Origin: Gemmatimonadota bacterium
GTDB taxonomy: Bacteria > Gemmatimonadota > Gemmatimonadetes > Gemmatimonadales > Gemmatimonadaceae
Direction: 5' to 3'
Length of the DNA stretch: 48,179 bases
Assembly (NCBI GenBank): GCA_025358315.1
Contig: JANYKA010000047.1
Coordinates: 1 to 48,179, forward strand
Shown here: positions 14,611-31,315 of the stretch, in pieces
Numbering within the stretch: the first letter of the stretch is position 1
How the letters are laid out: each line of letters opens with the position of its first letter
Program-made: the position numbers and the translations under genes
Notes under the pieces: model-generated
The model's database searches: none
Told to the model about the DNA's origin: nothing
Seen by the model: only the letters and a program-made list of their open reading frames with translations

Positions 14611-15914
14611 GAGGCGGATTTCTGGCGACACTGCTGGTCCTTGGTACTGCCAGCGGTTCCGGATTGGCGTACGCACAGCGCGATACGGCTACCACGTCAT
14701 ACGAAGTGAATGGCGTGAAAGTCATACAACGCCGGACGAATACATCGATCGTTGTGGCAAATCTGTATCTGCTGGGCGGCGTGCGGCAGTTGACCGTGCA
14801 GAACGCTGGCATTGAGGCGTTGTTGCTTGAGGTCAGCGATCGTGGCACCGCGAAATACCCGAAGGCGGTGCTCCGTCGTGCGATGGCTCGCACCGGGAGC
14901 GGCATCGCGATCTCGCCAAACGACGACTGGACATTGGTGGGTGTACGAACCACCACCAGTGAACTCGATTCCACTTGGTCGATTTTCGCGGATCGGTTGA
15001 TGCACCCGACACTCGACTCCACAGAGTTTGAGTTTGTCCGTGGCCAACTCCTGTCGGGACTCCGGCAGCGGACGGATAGCCCTGATGCCACCCTCGACTA
15101 TCTCGCGGACAGCATTTCCTATGCCGGTCAGCCCTACGCGCTGTCACCAGTTGGTACTCCAAAATCAATTGCCTCGATCACTCTTAGGCAGCTCAAGACG
15201 TATCATCGCGAACAATTTGTGACGTCCCGAATGTTGCTTGTTGTTGTCGGAGACGTCTCCCGCTTGACAATTGAAACACTGGTGCGCGCGACGATCGGCA
15301 AACTTCCCGTAGGAACGTACGCGTGGAGTATGCCGGTGATCAGTGCCCTGTTGCCCGGAGATGTCGTGTACGCCAGACGGCCACTGCCGACCAATTATTT
15401 GCAGGGCTATATGGCGGGACCGCCGGCAAATTCTCGTGATGCTCCCGCGCTGCGGGTCGCCGCAGCGATTCTTTCCGGGCGATTCTTCTCGGAAATCCGT
15501 TCGCACCGCAACCTGTCTTATGCGGTAAACGCCAGTTTCCGCGATCGCGGCCTTACGTCGATGGGATTGTATGTCACCACCACGGCACCGGATACAACGG
15601 TTGTCCTGATGAGAAACGAAGTCCGTGCGCTGCAGCAACACACCATCCCGACGGAAAATCTGCGTCCACTCGTCGCGCAGTTTATCACCGAATATTTCCT
15701 CGACAACGAAACGAGCACGGCGCAAGCTGATTTTCTCGCGCGGGCGCAACTGTATCGCGGAGATTTTCGCTTAGGCGAACGCTTTGTTGACGAGTTGCGC
15801 GCCGTCACCGGCGCAGATGTGCAGCGGGTCGCACAACAGTATCTGAAAAATGTACGATGGGCGTACGTGGGCGACCCGGCGTTGATCCGGCGCGAGCGTC
15901 TTACCTCGTTCTAG
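14607..15914 (+). CDS. exported M16-like peptidase, non-catalytic partner
   Basis: The 435-aa product has a signal peptide ([24 protein letters not shown]). It shows M16 architecture: [25 protein letters not shown], a second-domain motif [24 protein letters not shown], and a C-terminal [18 protein letters not shown] region. The zinc motif is absent: where the catalytic subunit has HLNEH this protein has [10 protein letters not shown]. Pairs of one HxxEH subunit and one lacking it, with an R/Y-type substrate-holding role, are known for M16B proteases. The GTG start lies inside the end of the upstream gene (GTGA overlap), so the subunits are probably made together. It ends with a 14-nt tail-to-tail overlap with hisIE. 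Confidence 0.86.
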
Positions 15915-16497
15915 CGCGCAATTCGCTGCGCACGCCGTCGAGCGAACCGCCGACGGCGTGCAATGCCACCAGCATATGGTATAGCAGATCGGCAGCCTCT
16001 TCGGTTGCGCGCGCCGCGTCCCCGTCTGCGCAGGCAGTGACAAACTCACTGGATTCTTCACCGATTTTCTTGAGGCGAAGGTTCCGATCACCGAGCAACT
16101 TGGCGGTATAGCTGACAGTGTCGGATGGCGGCAGCACAGACCTACTGTCGATCAGTGCATCAAGTTCGCCGAGTGTATCGGCGGCCACTTCACCAAAGCA
16201 GGTCACGGCGCCCGTGTGACATGCCGGTCCGGCTGGAATCACACGGGCAAGGATGGTGTCGCCATCGCAGTCTGCGGTAAGTGAAATCACTTGTTGCGTA
16301 TTTCCGCTCGACGCGCCCTTATGCCACAGTCCGCGAGTCCGTGAGTGATAATGCATTTCCCCAGTGGCAAGCGTGCGTTCCAATGCCTCCCGGTTCGCAA
16401 ATGCCTGCATCAGCACCTGCCCGGTTCGTGCATGTTGGGTGACCACACTGACGAGGCCGCTGCCCTTCTCAAAGTTGAGTGCGTCGAGATTCAACAT
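15901..16497 (-). CDS. hisIE: bifunctional phosphoribosyl-AMP cyclohydrolase / phosphoribosyl-ATP pyrophosphatase HisIE
   Basis: The 198-aa fusion carries out steps 2 and 3 of histidine synthesis. The HisI domain (about residues 1-115) shows [31 protein letters not shown], and the zinc/Mg residues in TADCDGDT and GPACHTG. The HisE domain follows, with [21 protein letters not shown] and the [12 protein letters not shown] helix. The ATG at 16495-16497 ([12 protein letters not shown]) is chosen; the longer frame overlaps hisN and encodes no family sequence. This is the last gene of the his operon, 46 nt after hisN, the only real gap between its structural genes. Confidence 0.94.
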
Positions 16498-16543
16498 GGC
16501 CCTGCCTTTCGAAAACGGGTGGTAAGAGGTACGACAAATGCCT

Positions 16544-17320
16544 TCATGAATCGATGCCAAGTTGGGCGCGAACGCTGACGGCAAGCGCAGAATTCGTGGC
16601 GATGGCATGACCGCCGAACGCCGTCGGCACGCCGAGGAGATCGGTAAAAACGCCTCCGGCCTCTTCGATGATCGGCTGGAAGCAGGCTACGTCCCAAAGG
16701 TTGGCTCGTGGATCGACCATCACATCGGCGCGGCCGGTGGCGACGAGCAAATAGCCAAAGCAATCCCCCCACGTGCGATATACGGCGGCACTGTCGGCGA
16801 GGGCGTTCCACAACGGAACATCCAGGAACGGGCCAAGCACGCGATCATCGGTGATGAGCACCGTTGCTGAACGGACATCGTCCACGGCGCTCACCGCGGC
16901 ACGGACATTATTATTCCACGCGCCACATCCGCGCGCGGCGCTGATCGTTTCGTCCACCGCCGCGAAGCAAGCGGCTCCGGCCAGAATGAGTTCGTCCTCA
17001 ACAACGGCAACGAGTGATCCCCACAACGGAACGCCGCGTACGAAGTTCTTGGTACCGTCGATTGGATCGAGCACCCAACGCCGGCCACTGGTGCCTGCCC
17101 GTTCCCCAAACTCCTCACCAAAAATCCCATCATTAGGAAATCGTTTACTGATCCAATCACGAACCGCCCGCTCGGCTCCGCGATCGGCTTCGGTCACCGG
17201 GCTGCCATCACCCTTGAGGTCCACGGCAATATTGGTGCGATAGTGCTGCAAGGCGATGCGGCCGGCGAGCCGGGCAGCTTCTTGCGCTGCCTGCATGAGC
17301 GCTTCGAGAGATTCGCTCAC
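16544..17320 (-). CDS. hisN: histidinol-phosphatase HisN, inositol-monophosphatase family
   Basis: This 258-aa Mg-dependent phosphatase shows the IMPase motifs [21 protein letters not shown] (first metal Glu), [15 protein letters not shown] (DPIDGT) and a C-terminal [15 protein letters not shown] (WD motif). In the his operon it should dephosphorylate L-histidinol phosphate, since HisB here is only the dehydratase. HisN-type phosphatases in his operons are known; the specific activity is inferred from context. The start is a GTG overlapping the hisF stop (GTGA, 17317-17320). Confidence 0.9.
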
Positions 17321-18081
17321 GCGACCATCCGTACGGATTGGCCGGCGTCGCGCAGGGCGCGCTTGAGCGCGCCCACCGTACTGACCCCGTCGTGGAGTAT
17401 CCCCGCGACGAGCACCGCATCGGCCGCGCCCTTGGCAATGGCATCACATACGTGCGATGCCACTCCGGCACCGCCACTGGCAATCACCGGTACCGTGACG
17501 GCTGACGCGACTGCATGGGTGAGCGCGAGGTCGTAACCGTTGCGGGATCCGTCCTGGTCAATGCTGGTGAGAAGAATCTCACCGGCCCCTTGGGCAACGC
17601 AGCGGTGTGCCCATTCGACGGCGTCGAGTTCGGTGCGGTGCTTCCCTCCCGATGTATAAACGCGCCACGAAGTTCCATCGCGCTTGGCATCGATACTGGC
17701 CACAATACACTGTGCGCCAAAACGTGCCGCGCCTTCACTTAGAATTTCCGGCGAATGTACCGCCGCTGAGTTCACACTTACCTTGTCGGCACCGGCGCGA
17801 AGGGCCGCGGCAATATCGTCCACTGTGCGAATTCCCCCGCCAACCGTCAATGGTATGAACAGCCGTTCTGCAGTGCGCCGGACGAGATCGAAGAGTGTGG
17901 CTCGCGCGTCAAGCGTCGCCGCGATATCGAGAAAGGTGATCTCGTCAGCGCCGTCAATTTCGTAATGTTGCGCGAGTTCGACGGGGTCGCCAACATCGCG
18001 CAACCCTTCAAACTGCACTCCTTTCATGACCCGTCCGTCCCGCACGTCGAGACAGACAATAACACGGCGGGACAGGCTCAC
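17317..18081 (-). CDS. hisF: imidazole glycerol phosphate synthase cyclase subunit HisF
   Basis: HisF is the cyclase (beta/alpha)8 subunit that, with HisH, converts PRFAR to IGP and AICAR. The 254-aa product shows [21 protein letters not shown] with the catalytic first Asp, [52 protein letters not shown] with the second catalytic Asp, and VIASGGAG. The GTG at 18079-18081 is used because it overlaps the hisB stop (GTGA) and gives the standard N-terminus; the open frame further upstream is antisense-like extension within hisB. Confidence 0.95.
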
Positions 18082-18623
18082 GCGTGTTCCACAGAAACGG
18101 TGCCCTTGGTACTCATCACGGTGCCGCCGTCGGCCAGGGCCTGTTTGAGCGAAAAACCGAGCGCCTTGAATGCTGCTTCGACAATATGATGACGATCCTC
18201 GCCCCGTAGCACTCGAAGGTGAAGCGTAAACTTTCCCGCATCGCAAAAGGAACGCATCCAGTGGTCGTAGAGTGAGCTCGGCAGCGGACCTTGATAGAAC
18301 GGACGGCCGCCGACATCGATCACTGCCTGCACGAGCGCGTCGTCCATCGGCACCGTGTGTTCGCCGTAACGCGCCGCACCGGCCGGGACGGCCGCGGCAA
18401 TCGCTGAACCGACGGTGAGGCCAACGTCTTCAATGATATGATGGCGCAAGTCACCGGAGGCGGCGACTGTGAGATCCAGGCCGCTATACTTTGCCAGCGC
18501 CACCAGCATGTGATCAAGAAAAGGCACGGACGTTGCAACGTGGGCGACACCGGAGCCCGGCGTGACCTCGACACGGATGCGGGTTTCGGCAGTGTTGCGT
18601 TCCACGATTTTTGATGACGTCAC
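18078..18623 (-). CDS. hisB: imidazoleglycerol-phosphate dehydratase HisB
   Basis: This 181-aa monofunctional dehydratase (step 6) has both Mn-binding repeats. The visible motifs are RNTAETRIRVEV, VPFLDHMLVALAKYSG, LRHHIIEDVGLTVG, VPMDDALVQAVIDVGGRPFYQG, and, in the second half, GEDRHHIVEAAFKALGFSL. The HHxxED/HHxxEA pairs are intact. The phosphatase half found in enterobacterial HisB is absent, which agrees with a separate hisN. The start is a GTG overlapping the hisA stop (GTGA, 18620-18623). Confidence 0.95.
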   Translation of the reverse strand: MTSSKIVERNTAETRIRVEVTPGSGVAHVATSVPFLDHMLVALAKYSGLDLTVAASGDLRHHIIEDVGLTVGSAIAAAVPAGAARYGEHTVPMDDALVQAVIDVGGRPFYQGPLPSSLYDHWMRSFCDAGKFTLHLRVLRGEDRHHIVEAAFKALGFSLKQALADGGTVMSTKGTVSVEHA

Positions 18624-19333
18624 TGCGCGAACTCCTCCGCGACGATGCGCGGGTCGAGTGTTCCGGTGTAGAGTGCCATTCCTATTACAACGCCTGCGAT
18701 ACCGCGCTCGTCAAGCGCCCGAAGATCGGCCATCGTGGCAATACCTCCTGACGCATAAACAGGCCATGCGCTCGCTTCCGCCACGTCTTCCATGAGCGGG
18801 AGGTCCGTACCCTGCAGCAATCCTTCGCGGTGAACGGCCGTGACGAGAAGGCCGCCAAGGGCGAGACCGTTCATGTCATCGACGACATCGAGAATCGTGC
18901 GGCGGAGTTGACGCGACCATCCGCGGGTTACCACGTTTCGTTCCCGCACGTCTGCCGCGACAATGAGGCGTCCCGGGAATGCAGCCGCGGTCTCTTCGAG
19001 CCAAGCTGGCTCTTCGAGTGCCCGCGTGCCCACGATGACCCAATCCGCACCGTCCTCAACTAGTGCGCGAATGTCGTCGTCGGTGCGAACGCCACCACCG
19101 ACCTGCATCGGACAAACATTATCGGATAGCAGATCGTGGACCACTTGCCGATTGGATCCACGTGCCGTGGCGGCATCGAGATCGACGATATGTAGCCGAT
19201 GAAAACCATGATTGCTCCAATCACGGGCGACGTCACGCGGCCGTTCGAGGCGAATGCTCTCGTGGGCATAATCACCGCCGATCAGTTGCACGACGTGCCC
19301 GTCACGCAAATCCAGCGCCGGAATCGCTAACAT
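18620..19333 (-). CDS. hisA: ProFAR isomerase HisA
   Basis: This 237-aa (beta/alpha)8 isomerase carries out step 4, an Amadori rearrangement of ProFAR to PRFAR. Motifs are MLAIPALDLRDGHVVQLIGGDY with the catalytic Asp, LHIVDLDAATARGSN, MQVGGGVRTDDD, DWVIVGTRALEEP, LIVAADVRERNVVTRGW, LLVTAVHREGLLQGTD and VYASGGIATMADL. The ATG at 19331-19333 overlaps the end of hisH by 7 nt (ATGTTAG). A longer upstream frame lies inside hisH and is not family-like. In the GLLQGTD segment HisA enzymes usually have D-x-DGT(M/L); here the preceding residues are HREG, a small departure worth noting. Confidence 0.92.
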   Translation of the reverse strand: MLAIPALDLRDGHVVQLIGGDYAHESIRLERPRDVARDWSNHGFHRLHIVDLDAATARGSNRQVVHDLLSDNVCPMQVGGGVRTDDDIRALVEDGADWVIVGTRALEEPAWLEETAAAFPGRLIVAADVRERNVVTRGWSRQLRRTILDVVDDMNGLALGGLLVTAVHREGLLQGTDLPLMEDVAEASAWPVYASGGIATMADLRALDERGIAGVVIGMALYTGTLDPRIVAEEFAQ

Positions 19334-19917
19334 GTCCGCAAAAACTCCTCTATGAATCGCACACCTGGTGCCGAGCTTTTCTCTGGATGAAATTGCACAC
19401 CAACCACATTTCCGGTCCGGACGGCTGCGGGAAAACGATCGCCATCGTGTGTCGACCAAGCGGTCACTACTCTTGGATCGGTTGGACGACAGACGAAACT
19501 GTTGGCATAGTATGCGGTCCGCAGGCCGGAACGCGTGAACAGCGTATCATTGACGTCTTCAATATCATTCCAGCCGATTTGCGGCACGTGTTGTGCCTGT
19601 AGTCGCTCCACCCGGCCACCGAAAATGGCGAGTCCGTTCCCTTCACCCTCGTCGCTCGATTCGAACAAGAGCTGCATGCCGAGGCAAACCCCGAGACAGG
19701 GCAACCCTGCTTGCAGGGCCGACCTCATTGTATCGTGGGCCGCGGCCATTGCGGCGGCGGCGGGAGCAAAGGCGCCGACGCCCGGAAGTACCAGCACGTC
19801 TGTCTCCAGTGCCAGCGCCGGATTGCTGACAAGCGTCACTTCCCGACCCTCGCCACACAATGATTTAGTGAGCGAGTGGAGGTTCCCGGCACCGTAGTCG
19901 AACACGGTAATACGCAC
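19327..19917 (-). CDS. hisH: imidazole glycerol phosphate synthase glutaminase subunit HisH
   Basis: HisH supplies ammonia to HisF. The 196-aa class I amidotransferase shows FDYGAGNLHSL at the N-terminus, VLPGVGAFAPAAAAM, the nucleophile elbow LGVCLGMQLLFESS (catalytic Cys), MGWN-like QIGWNDIE, and QFHPEKSS with catalytic His and Glu. The start is a GTG at 19915-19917 that follows the hisC stop without any spacer (TAAGTG), implying re-initiation by the same ribosomes. Confidence 0.95.
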   Translation of the reverse strand: MRITVFDYGAGNLHSLTKSLCGEGREVTLVSNPALALETDVLVLPGVGAFAPAAAAMAAAHDTMRSALQAGLPCLGVCLGMQLLFESSDEGEGNGLAIFGGRVERLQAQHVPQIGWNDIEDVNDTLFTRSGLRTAYYANSFVCRPTDPRVVTAWSTHDGDRFPAAVRTGNVVGVQFHPEKSSAPGVRFIEEFLRTC

Positions 19918-20979
19918 TTAAAGATTCTCCAAGCCGTCACCAATGACGGTGAGGACCCGTTCCATGATCGGCCAAGGCCCGGCCGTGATGCGCATGGCAT
20001 CACCAAGTCCCGGTAAGTTTCGAAACGCACGAATCCCGATTCCGTTCGCGCGGAGCCGAGCCGTGAGCACAACAGCATTTGGTGAGGGGATCAGTATAAA
20101 GTTTGTCGCCGATGGCAGTGGGTTGAGCCCCATCATGGAAAGTGCATCAGCAAGGCGAATTCGATTCGCAACAGCTTCAGCAGCCCGTTCGACCACCCAC
20201 CCCGCATCGTCCGTCATTGCTGTGACGGCGGCGCGTTCGGCAAAACTATTCAGCTTGTACGGACCGCGAGACCGTTCGATCGTTTCGATAATCGCTGGCG
20301 TCGCGGTCCCATATCCCACTCGCAACCCGGCAAGTCCGTATGCCTTGGAGAACGTCCGGCACACCAGTACGCGCTCAAGTGACGGTGCTTCGGACAGCAG
20401 TCCGGGAACTCCGGCGAACTCGGCATATGCCTCATCGACGATGACTAACCCGGGTGCGTGTGCAATCACTTTGCGTATCGCATCGGTCGGGGTTGCAGTA
20501 CCGGTCGGGTTATTCGGTGTGCAGAGATAAATAATTCGGGCGCCGGTCGCCAGAAGCGCATCGGCATCCATTGCGTGGTCCGCGGTCAGTGGAACAGGCA
20601 CGGGCCGGACATTGTTAATGCGCGAAAATACCGGGAGCATTACAAAGGTGGGATCAGGATGCGCGATCGTATCGCCGGGTGCCGCAAAGGCGCGTATAGC
20701 GCAGTCCAGCACATCGTCAGATCCATTTCCCGTAACGACGCATTCCGGTGCTATTCCCGCGCGGCCGGCGACGGTGCGCTTGAGTGATTCGCCATATAGA
20801 TCGGGATAGCGCGCGGCGCCTGTTCCCGCAGCGGCACGAAGCACGGCTGACGCTGCCGGTGGTGTACCCCACGCGTTGGTGTTGTCACTGAGGTCGATTT
20901 CCACGTCGGTGCCCGAGGTATACCGCGGGATCGTGTTGAAGCCGTCACGGGCGAGTTGATCGGCACTGCGTTGGGTCAT
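19918..20979 (-). CDS. hisC: histidinol-phosphate aminotransferase HisC
   Basis: This 353-aa PLP enzyme converts imidazole-acetol phosphate to histidinol phosphate. It shows ARYPDLYGESLKRTVA, VTGNGSDDVLDCAIRAF, PDPTFVMLPVF, YLCTPNNPTGTATP, VIVDEAYAEFAG (Asp that contacts PLP), CRTFSKAYGLAGLRVGYG with the PLP lysine, and a C-terminal FRNLPGLGDAMRITAGP with the substrate-carboxylate Arg. The ATG overlaps the hisD stop (ATGA, 20976-20979). Confidence 0.94.
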   Translation of the reverse strand: MTQRSADQLARDGFNTIPRYTSGTDVEIDLSDNTNAWGTPPAASAVLRAAAGTGAARYPDLYGESLKRTVAGRAGIAPECVVTGNGSDDVLDCAIRAFAAPGDTIAHPDPTFVMLPVFSRINNVRPVPVPLTADHAMDADALLATGARIIYLCTPNNPTGTATPTDAIRKVIAHAPGLVIVDEAYAEFAGVPGLLSEAPSLERVLVCRTFSKAYGLAGLRVGYGTATPAIIETIERSRGPYKLNSFAERAAVTAMTDDAGWVVERAAEAVANRIRLADALSMMGLNPLPSATNFILIPSPNAVVLTARLRANGIGIRAFRNLPGLGDAMRITAGPWPIMERVLTVIGDGLENL

Positions 20980-22283
20980 ACGGATTTCTCCTGCCAGTGA
21001 CGGGCTGCCGCAGCATGAGCGGGCAAACCCTCCGCATCGGCCAGTGTACCCACATCACTTGCCAACGCCGCGGCTGCACTTCGGCTCACGCGTTGCCAAG
21101 TGGTCCATCTATAGAAGTCTATTGTTGACAATCCAGAATAACTCCGCGCCAAGCCGCCTGTTGGGAGAACATGATTGGCACCGGTGAGGTAATCGCCAAA
21201 TGCAACACTGCTGTATGCGCCAATGAAGACTGTGCCGGCGTTCCGCACCCGGTCAGCCACGGCTTCAGCATCACTGCATACAACAAGCACGTGTTCGGCG
21301 GCGAAATCGGCGGCGAAGTTTAACGCATCCTTGAGTGCTGGAACAACAATGAGGGCTCCCCGACTTGCCAATGACTGCCGGATGATTGCCTCCCGCGCGG
21401 TGCCGGTGACAAGAGCAGCAAGTCGGCCCTCCACACGCTCTGCGAGCAACGCGCTGGGAGTCACAAGCACAACAACTGCCATCGGATCGTGCTCGGCCTG
21501 CGCCAACAATTCGCGTGCGATGACGTCAATGTCCGCCGCCTCGTCGGCGATCACAAGCAGTTCACTCGGACCGGCTGGCGCATCTATCGCTACCACGCCG
21601 GCCACTTGCAGCTTTGCTTCGGCAACCCACGCGTTACCCGGACCAACAATGCGATCGACCCGCGGTACAGTTGCGGTGCCGTAGGCCATCGCGGCAATGG
21701 CACCGGCGCCGCCGAGCGCGAATACCCGGTCGGCACCGGAGAGCTCTGCGGCAGCGAGTAGCACTGGAGACGGCGCGCCATCTGGCGCCGGGGGTGAACA
21801 GACGATGACGTCATCAACACCCGCCACGCGTGCCGGCACGACACCCATCAACAGACTACTGGGATAGGTTGCCCGTCCACCGGGAGCGTAGACACCAACG
21901 CGGTGCAGCGGCGTAGCACGACGACTGATCGTCACGCCGTCTGTCGTGGTGAATTCGCGATCCACCGGCCGGAAAACTTGGTGGGCACTACGAATGTTGC
22001 CGACAGCACGATCGAGCGCTTTTCGCAGTTTCGGATCAAGCGATGCCAGCGCGGATCGCCAGCGTACGCGGGGGATTTCGAATGTCTCAAGCGCCACGCT
22101 GTCGAACTCGAGGGCGAGTGCGCGCAGCGCTGCGTCGCCTTCAATTCGCACGCGTTGCAGTATAGCCGCGGTGGCGGTGCGAATCGCGTCGTCGGTACTG
22201 GTCGCGCGATCAAACAGAATTGCGTACTGAGCCGCCGTGAGCTCCCCGTACGTTCCACGTATGGCCAGGGAAATGGCCTTCAT
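20976..22283 (-). CDS. hisD: histidinol dehydrogenase HisD
   Basis: HisD oxidises histidinol to histidine in two NAD-dependent steps at a Zn site. The 435-aa product has the family blocks VGVYAPGGRATYPSSLLMGVVPA, ALGGAGAIAAMAYGTATVPRVDRIVGPGNAWV, DAPAGPSELLVIADE, LLAQAEHDPMAVVVLVT (QAEHD Zn ligands), AEHVLVVCSDAE, VFIGAYSSVAFGDYLTGANHVLPTGGLARSYSGL and the terminal EGLPAHAAAA. The ATG overlaps the hisG stop (ATGA, 22280-22283). Confidence 0.95.
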   Translation of the reverse strand: MKAISLAIRGTYGELTAAQYAILFDRATSTDDAIRTATAAILQRVRIEGDAALRALALEFDSVALETFEIPRVRWRSALASLDPKLRKALDRAVGNIRSAHQVFRPVDREFTTTDGVTISRRATPLHRVGVYAPGGRATYPSSLLMGVVPARVAGVDDVIVCSPPAPDGAPSPVLLAAAELSGADRVFALGGAGAIAAMAYGTATVPRVDRIVGPGNAWVAEAKLQVAGVVAIDAPAGPSELLVIADEAADIDVIARELLAQAEHDPMAVVVLVTPSALLAERVEGRLAALVTGTAREAIIRQSLASRGALIVVPALKDALNFAADFAAEHVLVVCSDAEAVADRVRNAGTVFIGAYSSVAFGDYLTGANHVLPTGGLARSYSGLSTIDFYRWTTWQRVSRSAAAALASDVGTLADAEGLPAHAAAARHWQEKSV

Positions 22284-23146
22284 GCCATCAACCTCTCAAT
22301 CCGCGTGACGAGAATACCTTCGCCACCGAGTCGCTTGAGCTCGGCAAGTGTGCGGTAGATGGTCTCGGCCGGGGCAACGGCGTGGACAGCGACCATCGTC
22401 CCGCCATTCATCAGGTCGATGATCGTTGGGCCTGAAATGCCTGGTAAAACGCGCTTCACATCATCGAGCTTTGCCCGCGGGACGTTTGCCATCACGTATC
22501 GTTGTCCACGCGCCGCCAAGACAGACTGAAGCGAAATCACCAGTTCATCGAGAGCGCGAGCACGTGCGCTCGGCACTGCGCGGTCGGCACGGGCCGTGAT
22601 GAGCCGCGCACTCGATTCAAGTACCGTGGCCACTTCACGCAATCCGTTGACACGCAGCGTGGAGCCGGTCGATGTCAGGTCAACGATAATGTCGGCAATC
22701 CCGAGGTGCGGTGCGATTTCGACGGCTCCGGAAATCGGGACGATCTCCACGGCCCGACCGGCGGACGCAAAAAACGCCCTGGTAAGTTTTGGGAAGACTG
22801 TGGCCACACGTACTCCTGCACCGATGTCCTCCAGTGTCCGCACATCACTGTCATCGCGTACCGCGACGACGATGCGGCAGCTCCCGAATGCGAGATCAAG
22901 CCGGGATTCAAGTCCGCGCTCGGACTCACTGACCAGATCCCAACCAGTGATGCCGGCATCGGCGGCGCCATCGGCGACGAATTCGGGAATGTCTTGGGCG
23001 CGCACAAAAATCGCTTCGAACTCCCCCCCCAGCGAAGCGGTGAGCGCCCGCTCGCTGGATGCACGTACCTCGAGACCGGCGTCGGCGAGCAATTCCCGGC
23101 ATTCCTGATTGAGTCGGCCTTTGTTTGGCAGCGCTATGCGAAGCAT
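22280..23146 (-). CDS. hisG: ATP phosphoribosyltransferase HisG, long allosteric form
   Basis: HisG catalyses the first, committed step (ATP + PRPP). At 288 aa it is the long form. The catalytic domains contain LRIALPNKGRLNQEC, ADAGITGWDLVSE, GSCRIVVAV, RVATVFPKLTRAFF, SGAVEIAPHLGIADIIVDLTSTGSTLR, and a C-terminal ACT-like domain (about residues 210-288: RYVMANVPRAKLDDVKRVLPGISGPTII, MVAVHAVAPAETIYRTLAELK). This domain gives histidine feedback inhibition in long HisG enzymes, so no HisZ is needed. It is the first structural gene of the operon and lies 40 nt after the attenuator terminator. No clear Shine-Dalgarno precedes the ATG at 23144-23146. Confidence 0.95.
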   Translation of the reverse strand: MLRIALPNKGRLNQECRELLADAGLEVRASSERALTASLGGEFEAIFVRAQDIPEFVADGAADAGITGWDLVSESERGLESRLDLAFGSCRIVVAVRDDSDVRTLEDIGAGVRVATVFPKLTRAFFASAGRAVEIVPISGAVEIAPHLGIADIIVDLTSTGSTLRVNGLREVATVLESSARLITARADRAVPSARARALDELVISLQSVLAARGQRYVMANVPRAKLDDVKRVLPGISGPTIIDLMNGGTMVAVHAVAPAETIYRTLAELKRLGGEGILVTRIERLMA

Positions 23147-23186: not shown

Positions 23187-23213
23187 AAAAAAGCCCGTCC
23201 AGTCTGGACGAGC
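23187..23213 (-). terminator. his attenuator: intrinsic terminator before hisG
   Basis: On the minus strand GCTCGTCCAG pairs with CTGGACGGGC (one U.G pair) and is followed by six T residues (23192 to 23187). The hairpin lies between the leader-peptide stop and hisG. Upstream, GTCGGGC within the leader codons (23283-23289) is complementary to GCCCGAC (23220-23226) just before the terminator. GCCCGACC can also pair imperfectly with the terminator's 3' arm (GGACGGGC). A competing antiterminator fold is therefore possible; that fold is inference, while the terminator and leader are directly visible. Confidence 0.88.
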
Positions 23214-23219
23214 CGAAGG

Positions 23220-23295
23220 GTCGGGCGGTGAAATCTCGGAGTGGCGCTACACCGGCATCCGGAAACACGCGACGATCCCCCGGCCCGACGGGCCG
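23220..23295 (-). promoter_or_regulatory. candidate pause hairpin and antiterminator segments of the his attenuator
   Basis: CGGCCC-GAC-GGGCCG (23281-23295) is a perfect inverted repeat lying directly after the His codons. It would form a hairpin if ribosomes do not cover it. Its minus-strand segment GTCGGGC can instead pair with GCCCGAC at 23220-23226. This is the layout expected of mutually exclusive 1:2 and 2:3 pairings, though the exact folds need a folding calculation. Confidence 0.5.
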
Positions 23296-23333
23296 TGGTG
23301 GCGATGCACGTGATGGATGGTGGTAAGGCGCAT
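23247..23333 (-). CDS. hisL: histidine operon leader peptide (28 aa)
   Basis: A 29-codon frame including the stop runs from ATG (23331-23333) to TAG (23247-23249). It begins MRLTTIHHVHRHHGPSG and contains five histidine codons within the seven-codon stretch HHVHRHH (codons 7-13). It is followed after 33 nt by a rho-independent terminator and then hisG. This is the classical arrangement for attenuation: ribosomes stalling at His codons when charged tRNA-His is scarce would favour antitermination. The frame is too short for most gene finders. A candidate promoter lies 7 nt upstream of the ATG, so the leader mRNA may be leaderless. Confidence 0.9.
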   Translation of the reverse strand: MRLTTIHHVHRHHGPSGRGIVACFRMPV

Positions 23334-23340
23334 GGAATCA

Positions 23341-23369
23341 AGCCTAGCGACGACGCGGCCTTTCGTCAA
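23341..23369 (-). promoter_or_regulatory. candidate promoter of the his operon
   Basis: On the minus strand TTGACG (23369-23364), a 17-nt spacer, and TAGGCT (23346-23341) precede the hisL ATG by 7 nt. The -35 matches 5/6 and the -10 matches 3/6. Transcription would begin at or next to the start codon. It lies in the short gap before the divergent dsbA-like gene. Confidence 0.5.
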
Positions 23370-23379
23370 ATTTGTATGG

Positions 23380-24108
23380 ATGCGACTCTCTCAACGATAC
23401 TCAGCCCCGATCCTGGCAACCTTTCTGCTTGCTTGCAGTCCGACCACCAAGACTGGCGCCGACCCGGACGCGGCGGCGGTGGCGTATCGTGAGGGCGATG
23501 CGCAGGCTCCGGTCAAGATGATCTACTTCGACGATCTCGTTTGCGAAGATTGCCGCACCTTCTCCCGCAGTGCTGCGGAGCCGCTCCGCACGACCTGGGT
23601 TGGCGGCAAGAAAGTACAACTGACCGTGATCGATCTCGCTTGGCACCGCGGCAGTGTCGCGGGATCGGCAGCTATGACTTGTGCCATAGAACAAGGCCAT
23701 TTTTGGGACATGCACGAGTTGTTGTTTGAGCGTCAAGACAGCTGGAAGCGCGAGAGCGATATTCCGGCCGCGCTGCAGAAGTATGCCACCGAATTAAAGC
23801 TTGACACGGCGAAATTTGCGACGTGTGCGGCACGAAAGGACCACCAAAGGCGACTCGACGCCGCAGACGATGCGGCACGCCGTCACGGAGTACGGGGAAC
23901 TCCGGCTTTCATTATTAATGGCAAGGCCTTCTTTGGTGCTCAGGACTGGTCGTGGATGGAGCGGGTTCTCACGGCATATGCGGCTGGAATGCCCGATTCT
24001 GCACCCCCGCCCCCAATGGGAATTCCCACCAAGAAAGTGGTGGATTCGGCCCGTTTGAAGGTGATGGAAGACTCTGTGGCAAGATTGAGGGGAAAGCCTA
24101 AGTCTTAG
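23380..24108 (+). CDS. DsbA-family thioredoxin-fold lipoprotein
   Basis: This 242-aa product has a lipoprotein signal (MRLSQRYSAPILATFLLACS, lipobox LLAC). A DsbA-like domain of the DSBA/DsbG-like thioredoxin_4 type follows. The redox motif is CEDC (in FDDLVCEDCRTFSRS, about residue 55), the helical insert contains FWDMHELLFERQDSW, and the cis-proline segment is GVRGTPAFIING. It would act in disulfide chemistry in the periplasm; direction (oxidase or isomerase) cannot be told. The start is the ATG at 23380, which gives an ideal signal peptide; the longer frame would overlap the his leader. A proline-rich tail (APPPPMG) precedes a short helix. Confidence 0.88.
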   Translation: MRLSQRYSAPILATFLLACSPTTKTGADPDAAAVAYREGDAQAPVKMIYFDDLVCEDCRTFSRSAAEPLRTTWVGGKKVQLTVIDLAWHRGSVAGSAAMTCAIEQGHFWDMHELLFERQDSWKRESDIPAALQKYATELKLDTAKFATCAARKDHQRRLDAADDAARRHGVRGTPAFIINGKAFFGAQDWSWMERVLTAYAAGMPDSAPPPPMGIPTKKVVDSARLKVMEDSVARLRGKPKS

Positions 24109-30328: not shown

Positions 30329-31315
30329 ATGTTCGTGGGCGCATCCACCTTGAGAATTGCGCGAGCGGTAATGGCACTTGGGGCCGTAGCCTCGCTCATT
30401 GCTTGCGGCACCACCGGCACCACCGGCACCACCAAGGAGCCGGCCACCGGTGCGGCCTCCGTCGCAACGCATTTCACGGAAGCGAATTGGAAGGCGCCCC
30501 GTGAGGCCGACATTCCAAACGACTCGCTCGGAGCGTCGATCAAGCGGGGTCTCTACCTCATCCGCTTTACGCCAGAGAGCCTGCCCGCGTACGCCACCAC
30601 GCGCATGCGCTGCACGAGCTGCCATCAGGACGACGGGCTTAAGGCAAGTGCCGCGCCGCTCAGTGGGTCGCACGCCCGGTTCCCAAAATACATGCCGCGT
30701 TCAGGCGCCGTCATCGCCCTCGCCGATCGTGTGAATTACTGTTTCACGCGTTCACTTGCCGGCAACGCAATCCCCGTTGGCAGCCGAGAGATGGTCGATA
30801 TCCTCGCATATCTTGCCTTCATATCTCACGACGTCCCCGTTGGCAGAAAGACGGCAGGAACCGATGGCCTTATCTCAATGCAGGTTACGTTGGAAGGCGA
30901 CACCACACGGGGCCGCGATGTGTTCGAGAAGACGTGCATTGTGTGCCACCTGAAGGACGGCGGGGGCAACGGTCCGATTCCCGCGCTGTGGGGGCCTATG
31001 TCGTACTCGATCGGCGCATCGATGGCACGTGAGGAGCGCGCCGCCAGCTTCATCTGGCACAACATGCCGCAGTCGGCACCGGGCACGCTGACACCGCAGC
31101 AGGCTTTCGACCTCTCTGCCTTCATCAACGCGCATCCTCGCCCCGACTCACCCGGCAAGGAAAGGGACTGGCCGATGGGCCGTGCGCCTAAGGATGTACC
31201 GTATGGCACGCAGGGGCACGAAGCGTTCAAACCACCGCGTCAGCTCCTGCCGCGCGCGAATCCCCAAGGTGCGCTTGTCCCGAAGCCGGCCGTGCTTGGC
31301 CGCGTGAATCGGTAG
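30329..31315 (+). CDS. TsdA-like dihaem c-type cytochrome (thiosulfate dehydrogenase family)
   Basis: The 328-aa exported lipoprotein (VASLIACG) carries two haem c sites, CTSCH (about residue 93) and CIVCH (about residue 208). The N-terminal half closely follows the TsdA pattern: RCTSCHQDDGLKASAAPLSGSHARFPKYMPRSGAVIALADRVNYCFTRSLAGNAIPVGSREM. The C-terminal half ends with the DWPMGRAPKDVPY/GHEAF segment typical of related dihaem cytochromes. TsdA oxidises thiosulfate to tetrathionate or runs in reverse. A (GGCACCACC)x3 run just after the lipobox encodes GTTGTTGTT. It is followed 7 nt later by soxC, whose Shine-Dalgarno overlaps its stop. Confidence 0.82.
   Translation: MFVGASTLRIARAVMALGAVASLIACGTTGTTGTTKEPATGAASVATHFTEANWKAPREADIPNDSLGASIKRGLYLIRFTPESLPAYATTRMRCTSCHQDDGLKASAAPLSGSHARFPKYMPRSGAVIALADRVNYCFTRSLAGNAIPVGSREMVDILAYLAFISHDVPVGRKTAGTDGLISMQVTLEGDTTRGRDVFEKTCIVCHLKDGGGNGPIPALWGPMSYSIGASMAREERAASFIWHNMPQSAPGTLTPQQAFDLSAFINAHPRPDSPGKERDWPMGRAPKDVPYGTQGHEAFKPPRQLLPRANPQGALVPKPAVLGRVNR
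30407..30433 (+). repeat. 9-nt tandem repeat, three copies, in the cytochrome gene
   Basis: GGCACCACC is repeated three times in perfect tandem, coding for Gly-Thr-Thr repeats in the linker after the lipidated Cys. Copy number could vary between strains without changing frame. Confidence 0.8.

Follow-up and report, generated by a model that had tools for sequence, protein, structure and literature searches.

The histidine operon of Escherichia coli and Salmonella is preceded by hisL, which encodes a leader peptide with a run of His codons and contains a terminator before the operon and hairpins that compete with one another. The hisL leader has six pairing segments. Outside the Proteobacteria, his attenuators have been predicted in the Firmicutes, in Erysipelotrichaceae/-ales, Peptostreptococcaceae and the Bacillus cereus group (PMC9413887; cited, like the other PMC sources, from excerpts of the text), and His leaders have been described before hisS/hisZ in bacilli (PMC2965389). 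In 2010, the authors of the latter work knew of leader-peptide systems only in Proteobacteria and Actinobacteria. Actinobacteria are the subject of PMC1262725. In Sinorhizobium meliloti, the trp leader RNA is reported to have the leader peptide's ATG at its very 5' end (PMC7298713). In Corynebacterium glutamicum, the AroR leader, with Phe-Tyr-Phe codons, lies before the aroF operon (Neshat et al. 2014, cited in PMC11802643).

The element described here lies upstream of hisG in a 48,179-nt stretch of DNA from a Gemmatimonadota bacterium (the window, meaning the whole stretch that was analysed). It is very probably an attenuator of his operon transcription that is mediated by the ribosome and works on a leaderless leader mRNA. 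At the level of sequence, the grounds for this reading are the leader ORF, its run of His codons, promoter-like elements, the hairpins, the conservation of these features and the coevolution of an outer pairing between segments 2 and 3 (2:3). From these we infer the start site, the stalling, the termination and the response to histidine. The leader ORF, the terminator and hisG are all on the minus strand (Table 1). Unlike hisL, the element consists of four segments and its promoter placing predicts a leaderless mRNA, the comparison being one of layout rather than of aligned sequences. The likeness to hisL noted in the first-pass annotation holds for the His-codon leader, the terminator before the his operon and the competing hairpins (PMC9413887, excerpts), while the layout is a simple four-segment one and the antiterminator pairing is another than the annotation had proposed. 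With the His leaders of Firmicutes and bacilli the element shares a leader, a terminator and an antiterminator outside the Proteobacteria. It differs from them in phylum and in its predicted leaderless layout, which the excerpts of PMC9413887 and PMC2965389 do not mention, as far as a comparison by description can tell.

Table 1. Features of the his leader and operon, and of the sister leader in the same genome. Positions are those of the window, except in the last line.
Feature	Position	Strand	Basis
-35 element, TTGACG	23364..23369	-	sequence; pattern match in own genome; 133 of 160 leaders with TTGAC similarly placed relative to the start codon
Predicted -10 element, TAGGCT, 17-nt spacer, 7 nt before the leader ATG	23341..23346	-	sequence and the pattern in relatives
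Leader peptide ORF, 28 codons and TAG, MRLTTIHHVHRHHGPSGRGIVACFRMPV	23247..23333	-	sequence; corresponding leaders in relatives
Control codons, 5 His in 7 (HHVHRHH)	23295..23315	-	sequence; relatives; shuffles
Segment 1, GGCCC, partner of segment 2	23290..23294	-	helix 1:2 paired in 97.9% of cells, 38 leaders
Segment 2, CGGGCCGGGGG, partner of 1 or 3	23277..23287	-	pairing and alignment analyses of leaders
Segment 3, CCCTTCGGCTCG, antiterminator partner, whose 3' half forms the beginning of the terminator 5' arm	23209..23220	-	pairing analyses of leaders
Predicted intrinsic terminator (segments 3:4) and T tract	23187..23214	-	terminator scan; 155 of 160 unique leaders; compensatory changes
hisG, long form with HisG_C domain	22280..23146	-	Pfam PF08029
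Rest of presumed operon: hisD, hisC-like, hisH-like, hisA-/hisF-like, hisB, hisN-like, hisIE	15901..22283	-	Pfam families
Sister leader before DAHP synthase in the same genome, MPTRPATNLSYYYRLPGSGDGGGR	G000:C209:10072-10250 (L300, L326, L378)		covariance-model match

Most of the features that had been read from the letters of this region were found again. The frame of 28 codons, in which five of seven consecutive codons encode His, is present, on a strand that the first-pass annotation had left unnamed. The perfect inverted repeat reported right after the His codons is GGCCC-GTC-GGGCC, directly 3' of the last of them. The hairpin with T tract placed before hisG was recovered by a terminator scan, and 40 nt separate its end (23187) from the hisG start (23146). 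The scan returned two terminator-like sites in the 801 bases scanned, against a mean of 0.4 in shuffles. As had also been stated, HisG is of the long form. Both its catalytic and its C-terminal domain are present by Pfam, the latter confirmed by PF08029. The Pfam-based order after hisG is hisD, an aminotransferase (hisC-like), a glutamine amidotransferase (hisH-like), two His_biosynth genes (hisA-/hisF-like) flanking hisB, an inositol-monophosphatase-family gene (hisN-like) and hisIE. Order and spacing suggest that these genes are co-transcribed, and are the source of the gene names beyond the Pfam families. A DsbA-like thioredoxin-domain gene is divergent from the his leader (23380-24105, plus strand). 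Position 23380 is its likelier start, since the ORF extended to 23317 would run into the his leader and its promoter.

The leader is widespread in the family. HisG was found in 76 of 99 family genomes (81 match rows), and 70 of the match rows were read. Two of these loci have too little upstream DNA (L033, and L014, whose visible part has a His run), which leaves 68 testable loci. The first-pass annotation had held that close relatives lacking a His run or a terminator upstream of hisG would speak against its reading. A His-run leader precedes hisG in 67 of the 68, a weak one (L070) among them, and the sole exception, L045, has none upstream of hisG. Terminators, too, are present, in 155 of 160 unique leaders (see below). 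The comparative data support the his attenuator reading, and the annotation's observation is confirmed as real and its reading as right in substance.

In the wider phylum, where HisG matches occur in 212 of 298 genomes, 71 further loci were read, two of them cut short (L083, L101). Among the 69 testable loci, 47 carry the leader, one more (L115) carries a weak one and 21 do not carry it. These 21 comprise 12 loci whose HisG-like match is short, covering about 190-225 of 288 residues, four of another class (f11), one of family f3, and L104, L105, L113 and L093, the last of which has a hairpin but no His run. Judged by eye, several of the 12 short-HisG loci look to follow a hisZ-like frame. A simple scan reaching up to about 3.5 kb found no clear leader farther upstream in 12 loci with short-form or leader-free hisG (L142-L153). 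Within family f2, the short-HisG loci that were read (L122, L123, L125-L129, L131, L132, L134) have no leader. In genus g45 of the same family, which has the long HisG (L082-L086), the leader is present in four of five loci, i.e. wherever upstream DNA suffices. The contrast looks as if the his operon and its switch had been exchanged.

In a further set of 80 loci from named records, which overlaps the family and phylum loci, the scan recovered 76 leaders. Of the remaining four loci, three are truncated by a contig end, and L178 has the same upstream sequence as L022, which does have a leader. By its nearest relatives the window's genome is one of the Gemmatimonadota, and L156, titled Gemmatimonadetes bacterium, has a HisG 98% identical to that of the window. 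The named loci include leaders outside the Gemmatimonadota (within L180-L231), 20 of myxococcal type and four from Candidatus Eisenbacteria MAGs. Nineteen of the myxococcal records are titled Corallococcus, Myxococcus, Pyxidicoccus, Archangium, Hyalangium or Myxococcaceae, among them a Myxococcus xanthus strain (L229). The twentieth (L192) is titled Comamonas, a title that does not fit, its leader resembling those of Myxococcus. Nor does the title Candidatus Kuenenia fit L223, whose leader is the same as that of the Gemmatimonadaceae locus L140. HisG of the 24 loci of myxococcal type or from Eisenbacteria is 66-70% identical to that of the window, which falls inside the range of the window's own family (mostly 63-81%). 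The promoter pattern described below accompanies 19 of the 20 leaders of myxococcal type, 15 of them starting with GTG, and two of the four from Eisenbacteria.

The leader set comprises 191 rows. With the two weak leaders (L070 and L115) dropped and identical leaders merged, 160 unique leaders remain. TTGAC, with a TA-hexamer 16-19 nt further on, occurs before 133 of these, and the pattern as scanned is absent from 27. The start of TTGAC lies 34-40 nt from the start codon in 128 of the 133 (mode 36), and the end of the -10 element lies 5-10 nt from it in 126 (mode 7). In shuffled upstream DNA, TTGAC fell within the searched region in 94 of 8000 cases. Transcription usually starts about seven nucleotides after the -10 element, so that with this geometry the transcript would begin on the start codon or within a few nucleotides of it. 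Among the 133 leaders with the promoter pattern, 5 have a Shine-Dalgarno-like 4-mer before them. The promoter placing and the missing Shine-Dalgarno sequence together predict a leaderless leader mRNA, and in the window the leader ORF is predicted to start at the 5' end of the transcript or within a few nucleotides of it. In the window's own assembly (2.8 Mb, 82% complete), the promoter-plus-ATG pattern occurs eight times, two of the matches being attenuator leaders. Six other ORFs with the same promoter-to-ATG spacing (G000 contigs C45, C133, C227, C231 and C267; L374, L375, L377, L379-L381) may be leaderless; the reversed pattern, as a control, gives four matches.

This predicted layout resembles that of S. 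meliloti trpL, whose RNA is reported to begin at the leader ATG and whose leader RNA and peptide act in trans (PMC7298713, excerpts). There, Trp codons precede trpE(G) and trans roles are reported, whereas here His codons precede the his operon. It is conceivable, if rather unlikely, that the terminated leader RNA or the peptide is the main product in this case as well, acting in trans, with attenuation secondary. A GPTGRG-like stretch recurs in many leader peptides, but the segments that encode it, 1 and 2, are paired, which suffices to explain why it is conserved, and the ends and lengths of the peptides vary.

A terminator was found automatically in 155 of the 160 unique leaders, and the other five (L010, L029, L049, L220, L228) each show a GC-rich hairpin by eye. 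These five, together with L038 (N bases, leader frame not closed), were left out of the pairing analyses, which cover 154 leaders. A hairpin followed by a T tract is the mark of intrinsic termination, and its presence in those 155 leaders makes it very unlikely that the leader mainly controls translation, with stalling freeing or hiding the hisG start while transcription is not stopped. Such control would suit a hisG that starts only 40 nt past the hairpin and the occurrence of Shine-Dalgarno-like 4-mers before just 24 of 160 hisG starts; however, the hairpin in the window does not extend to the hisG start.

The attenuator reading also calls for alternative pairings. In an alignment of 38 leaders, helix 1:2 and the terminator are 98% paired, and 13 cells are changed on both sides, a number reached in 0 of 500 shuffles. 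Further pair types in these two helices are less striking, with 44 of 500 shuffles as high. Helix 1:2 forms a predicted hairpin adjoining the control codons and would compete with the antiterminator. For the latter role, the complementary segments GTCGGGC/GCCCGAC had been proposed in the first-pass annotation. The segments exist, but the helix makes no contact with the terminator, and it was rejected as the antiterminator because it lies upstream of the terminator and both form together in folds. The pairing that does reach the terminator is that of CGGGCCGGGGG with CCCTTCGGCTCG. Its core, ACGGGYCG with CGGCCCGT, is 92.8% paired in the 38 leaders, versus 27-46% when slid, and shows no covariation (372 of 500 shuffles as high). 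In 153 of 154 leaders, the 2:3 duplex claims five or more nucleotides of the terminator 5' arm, and a shuffled segment 2 gives an equally good duplex in about 7% of shuffles. As predicted from these pairings, the antiterminator would exclude the terminator.

Beyond the core, the segment 2 of each genome tends to pair on with the stretch just before its own terminator. Among 108 representatives under 70% identity, the energies of this outer 2:3 pairing sum to -2234 kcal/mol for each genome's own partners versus -1938 (sd 33) for permuted ones (z -9.0; 0 of 20,000 permutations). Reversed and reverse-complement controls are flat (z -0.85 and -0.56). The signal is a shift spread over many genomes; a genome's own pairing is the best of all in 1 of 108 cases and within the best 5% in 16. 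When each genome is compared with its nearest relatives alone, 71 to 73 of 108 pair more strongly with their own partner (Wilcoxon p 3e-4 to 1e-5), and the reversed control in this comparison is not significant. The outer pairing of the window itself is ordinary (rank 0.46).

In the proposed attenuator, transcription would start at or next to the leader ATG, as the promoter geometry indicates, and a ribosome would load on the bare 5' end and trail the RNA polymerase. With ample charged tRNA-His, the ribosome would reach the stop codon and either cover segment 2 or let 1:2 form, and the 3:4 terminator would then form before hisG. When histidine is short, the ribosome would stall in the His run, the long 2:3 helix would take part of the terminator 5' arm, and the polymerase would continue into the his genes.

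Ribosome positions were compared by folding the nascent chain left free by the ribosome and counting the leaders in which half or more of the terminator arm is sequestered. A ribosome placed at the first His codon gives 154 of 154 such leaders, and one at the middle His codon gives 153. The count is 65 for the last His codon, 49 for the stop codon and 105 when no ribosome is present. The corresponding counts for 770 shuffled leaders are 559 (first), 562 (middle), 528 (last) and 543 (none). With shuffles already at about 70%, the measure is a weak one. Real leaders lie above the shuffled ones at the first and middle His codons, below them at the last and level with them without a ribosome. Since only the first and middle positions exceed the control, it is the early and middle His codons that look effective. 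Termination without translation is not predicted, because the state without a ribosome stands at the shuffled level. Of the two folding states that the first-pass annotation had envisaged, the antiterminator can pair with part of the terminator arm in nearly every leader, as given above, but a simple equilibrium comparison favours the terminator, which is the lower in energy at every ribosome position in all but at most 2 of 154 leaders. Antitermination would therefore have to be kinetic. Equilibrium folding was rejected as proof of switching, given the favoured terminator and a sequestration at or below the shuffled level in some states.

In the window, none of the Rfam families scores as high as its gathering threshold. 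Neither a T-box nor the Rfam His leader family gives a covariance-model match in the window or among the four weaker matches of the leader (to E 10), and the element is not assigned to the His leader family for want of such a match. A weak match to RF00519 (23 bits, with 41 needed) was taken for a resemblance between terminators. With the weaker matches not being T-boxes, it is highly improbable that another his control, such as a T-box, acts here.

The window holds two clusters of at least five His codons in seven, that of the his leader and one at 30408 on the plus strand, in the frame of a short repeat within another gene. In 200 dinucleotide shuffles, the mean number of such clusters is 0.085, and 15 of the 200 have at least one. 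The fold of the leader region alone is only mildly unusual (z -1.39). As the local fold is unremarkable alone, it is the relatives that decide, and the strength of the case comes from them. Despite the second cluster and the modest fold, a chance meeting of a His-rich ORF with an unrelated terminator, or with one that serves another transcript, is hardly credible when the arrangement recurs in most long-HisG relatives and in other phyla and its outer pairing coevolves.

A covariance model built from the his leaders matched 81 of 98 family genomes at an E value of 0.01 or lower, the weakest matches being near noise. Fourteen weaker or isolated matches were read. L308 is a his leader that lies where a contig ends, L311 and L312 fall in coding sequence, and the other 11 represent a second kind of leader (L300-L307, L309, L310, L313) with the same promoter, segment 2 and terminator and with Tyr-rich codon runs. 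The copy in the window's own genome has three Tyr codons and passes a looser scan only. A stricter scan, requiring an aromatic run, a -35 element and a terminator (loci among L314-L373), finds Tyr/Phe/Trp-rich leaders at 20 of 30 DAHP synthase loci and at 10 of 30 for the aromatic hydroxylase family PF00351. These loci are the best-scoring 30 matches of each family rather than a random sample, and most genomes have several DAHP synthase matches. The same scan finds none at 22 trpE loci, none at 15 ilvB-like loci and none in 120 base-shuffled upstream stretches. Nor does a convincing Trp leader precede trpE in the 22 loci; they contain ORFs with 2 to 4 Trp codons, none of them accompanied by the pattern of promoter and terminator. 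The aromatic sister elements hint that attenuators of this design control a wider regulon. Like AroR, these elements place a leader with aromatic codons before a DAHP synthase operon (PMC11802643, excerpts). They differ from its Phe-Tyr-Phe in being Tyr-rich, and have an aromatic hydroxylase as a second target. No report of a Tyr leader attenuator was found among the open-access papers listed, and we consider the aromatic sister family the more novel lead.

Two loci of family f2 (L236, L237) have Leu/Val/Ile-rich short ORFs before leuA, one with TTGACA upstream, and these are possible further leader peptides. In the window's own genus, a leuA-type match was found in 1 of 16 genomes (own included), and 3 of 26 relatives have an ilvB match above the cut-off. 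This genus may lack branched-chain amino acid synthesis or have a divergent form of it.

The first-pass annotation had thought ribosome-mediated his attenuation outside the Proteobacteria to be notable. For the phylum this stands, in that no report of a his attenuator was found among the open-access papers listed under the name Gemmatimonadetes, and an earlier prediction for Gemmatimonas could be contained in Lopatovskaya et al. 2010 (cited in PMC4833913). Outside the Proteobacteria in general it is not new, because his attenuation was predicted in Firmicutes (PMC9413887, excerpts) and leaders before hisS/hisZ were described in bacilli (PMC2965389, excerpts). We lean towards the view that the Gemmatimonadota own one leaderless attenuator cassette for histidine and the aromatic amino acids, whose his form is common to the Myxococcaceae and Candidatus Eisenbacteria along with hisG, by transfer or old descent. 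The cassette would consist of the promoter, a start codon at the transcript end, a codon run, a TGRG-encoding segment 2 and a GGCCCGT-type terminator. Its targets would be the his operon and, with Tyr/Phe/Trp-rich leaders, DAHP synthase and a phenylalanine-hydroxylase-like gene. If this is true, Tyr-run control of a gene making tyrosine from phenylalanine would be a new target of leader-peptide attenuation.

The 28-codon leader is easily missed by gene callers, and no Rfam family matched in the window. The element would extend leader-peptide attenuation of his genes to the Gemmatimonadota, the Myxococcaceae and Candidatus Eisenbacteria. In these bacteria, translation would need to initiate on a bare 5' end with the ribosome still keeping pace with the polymerase, and in Myxococcus xanthus, a tractable host, the timing of leaderless initiation relative to attenuation becomes directly testable.
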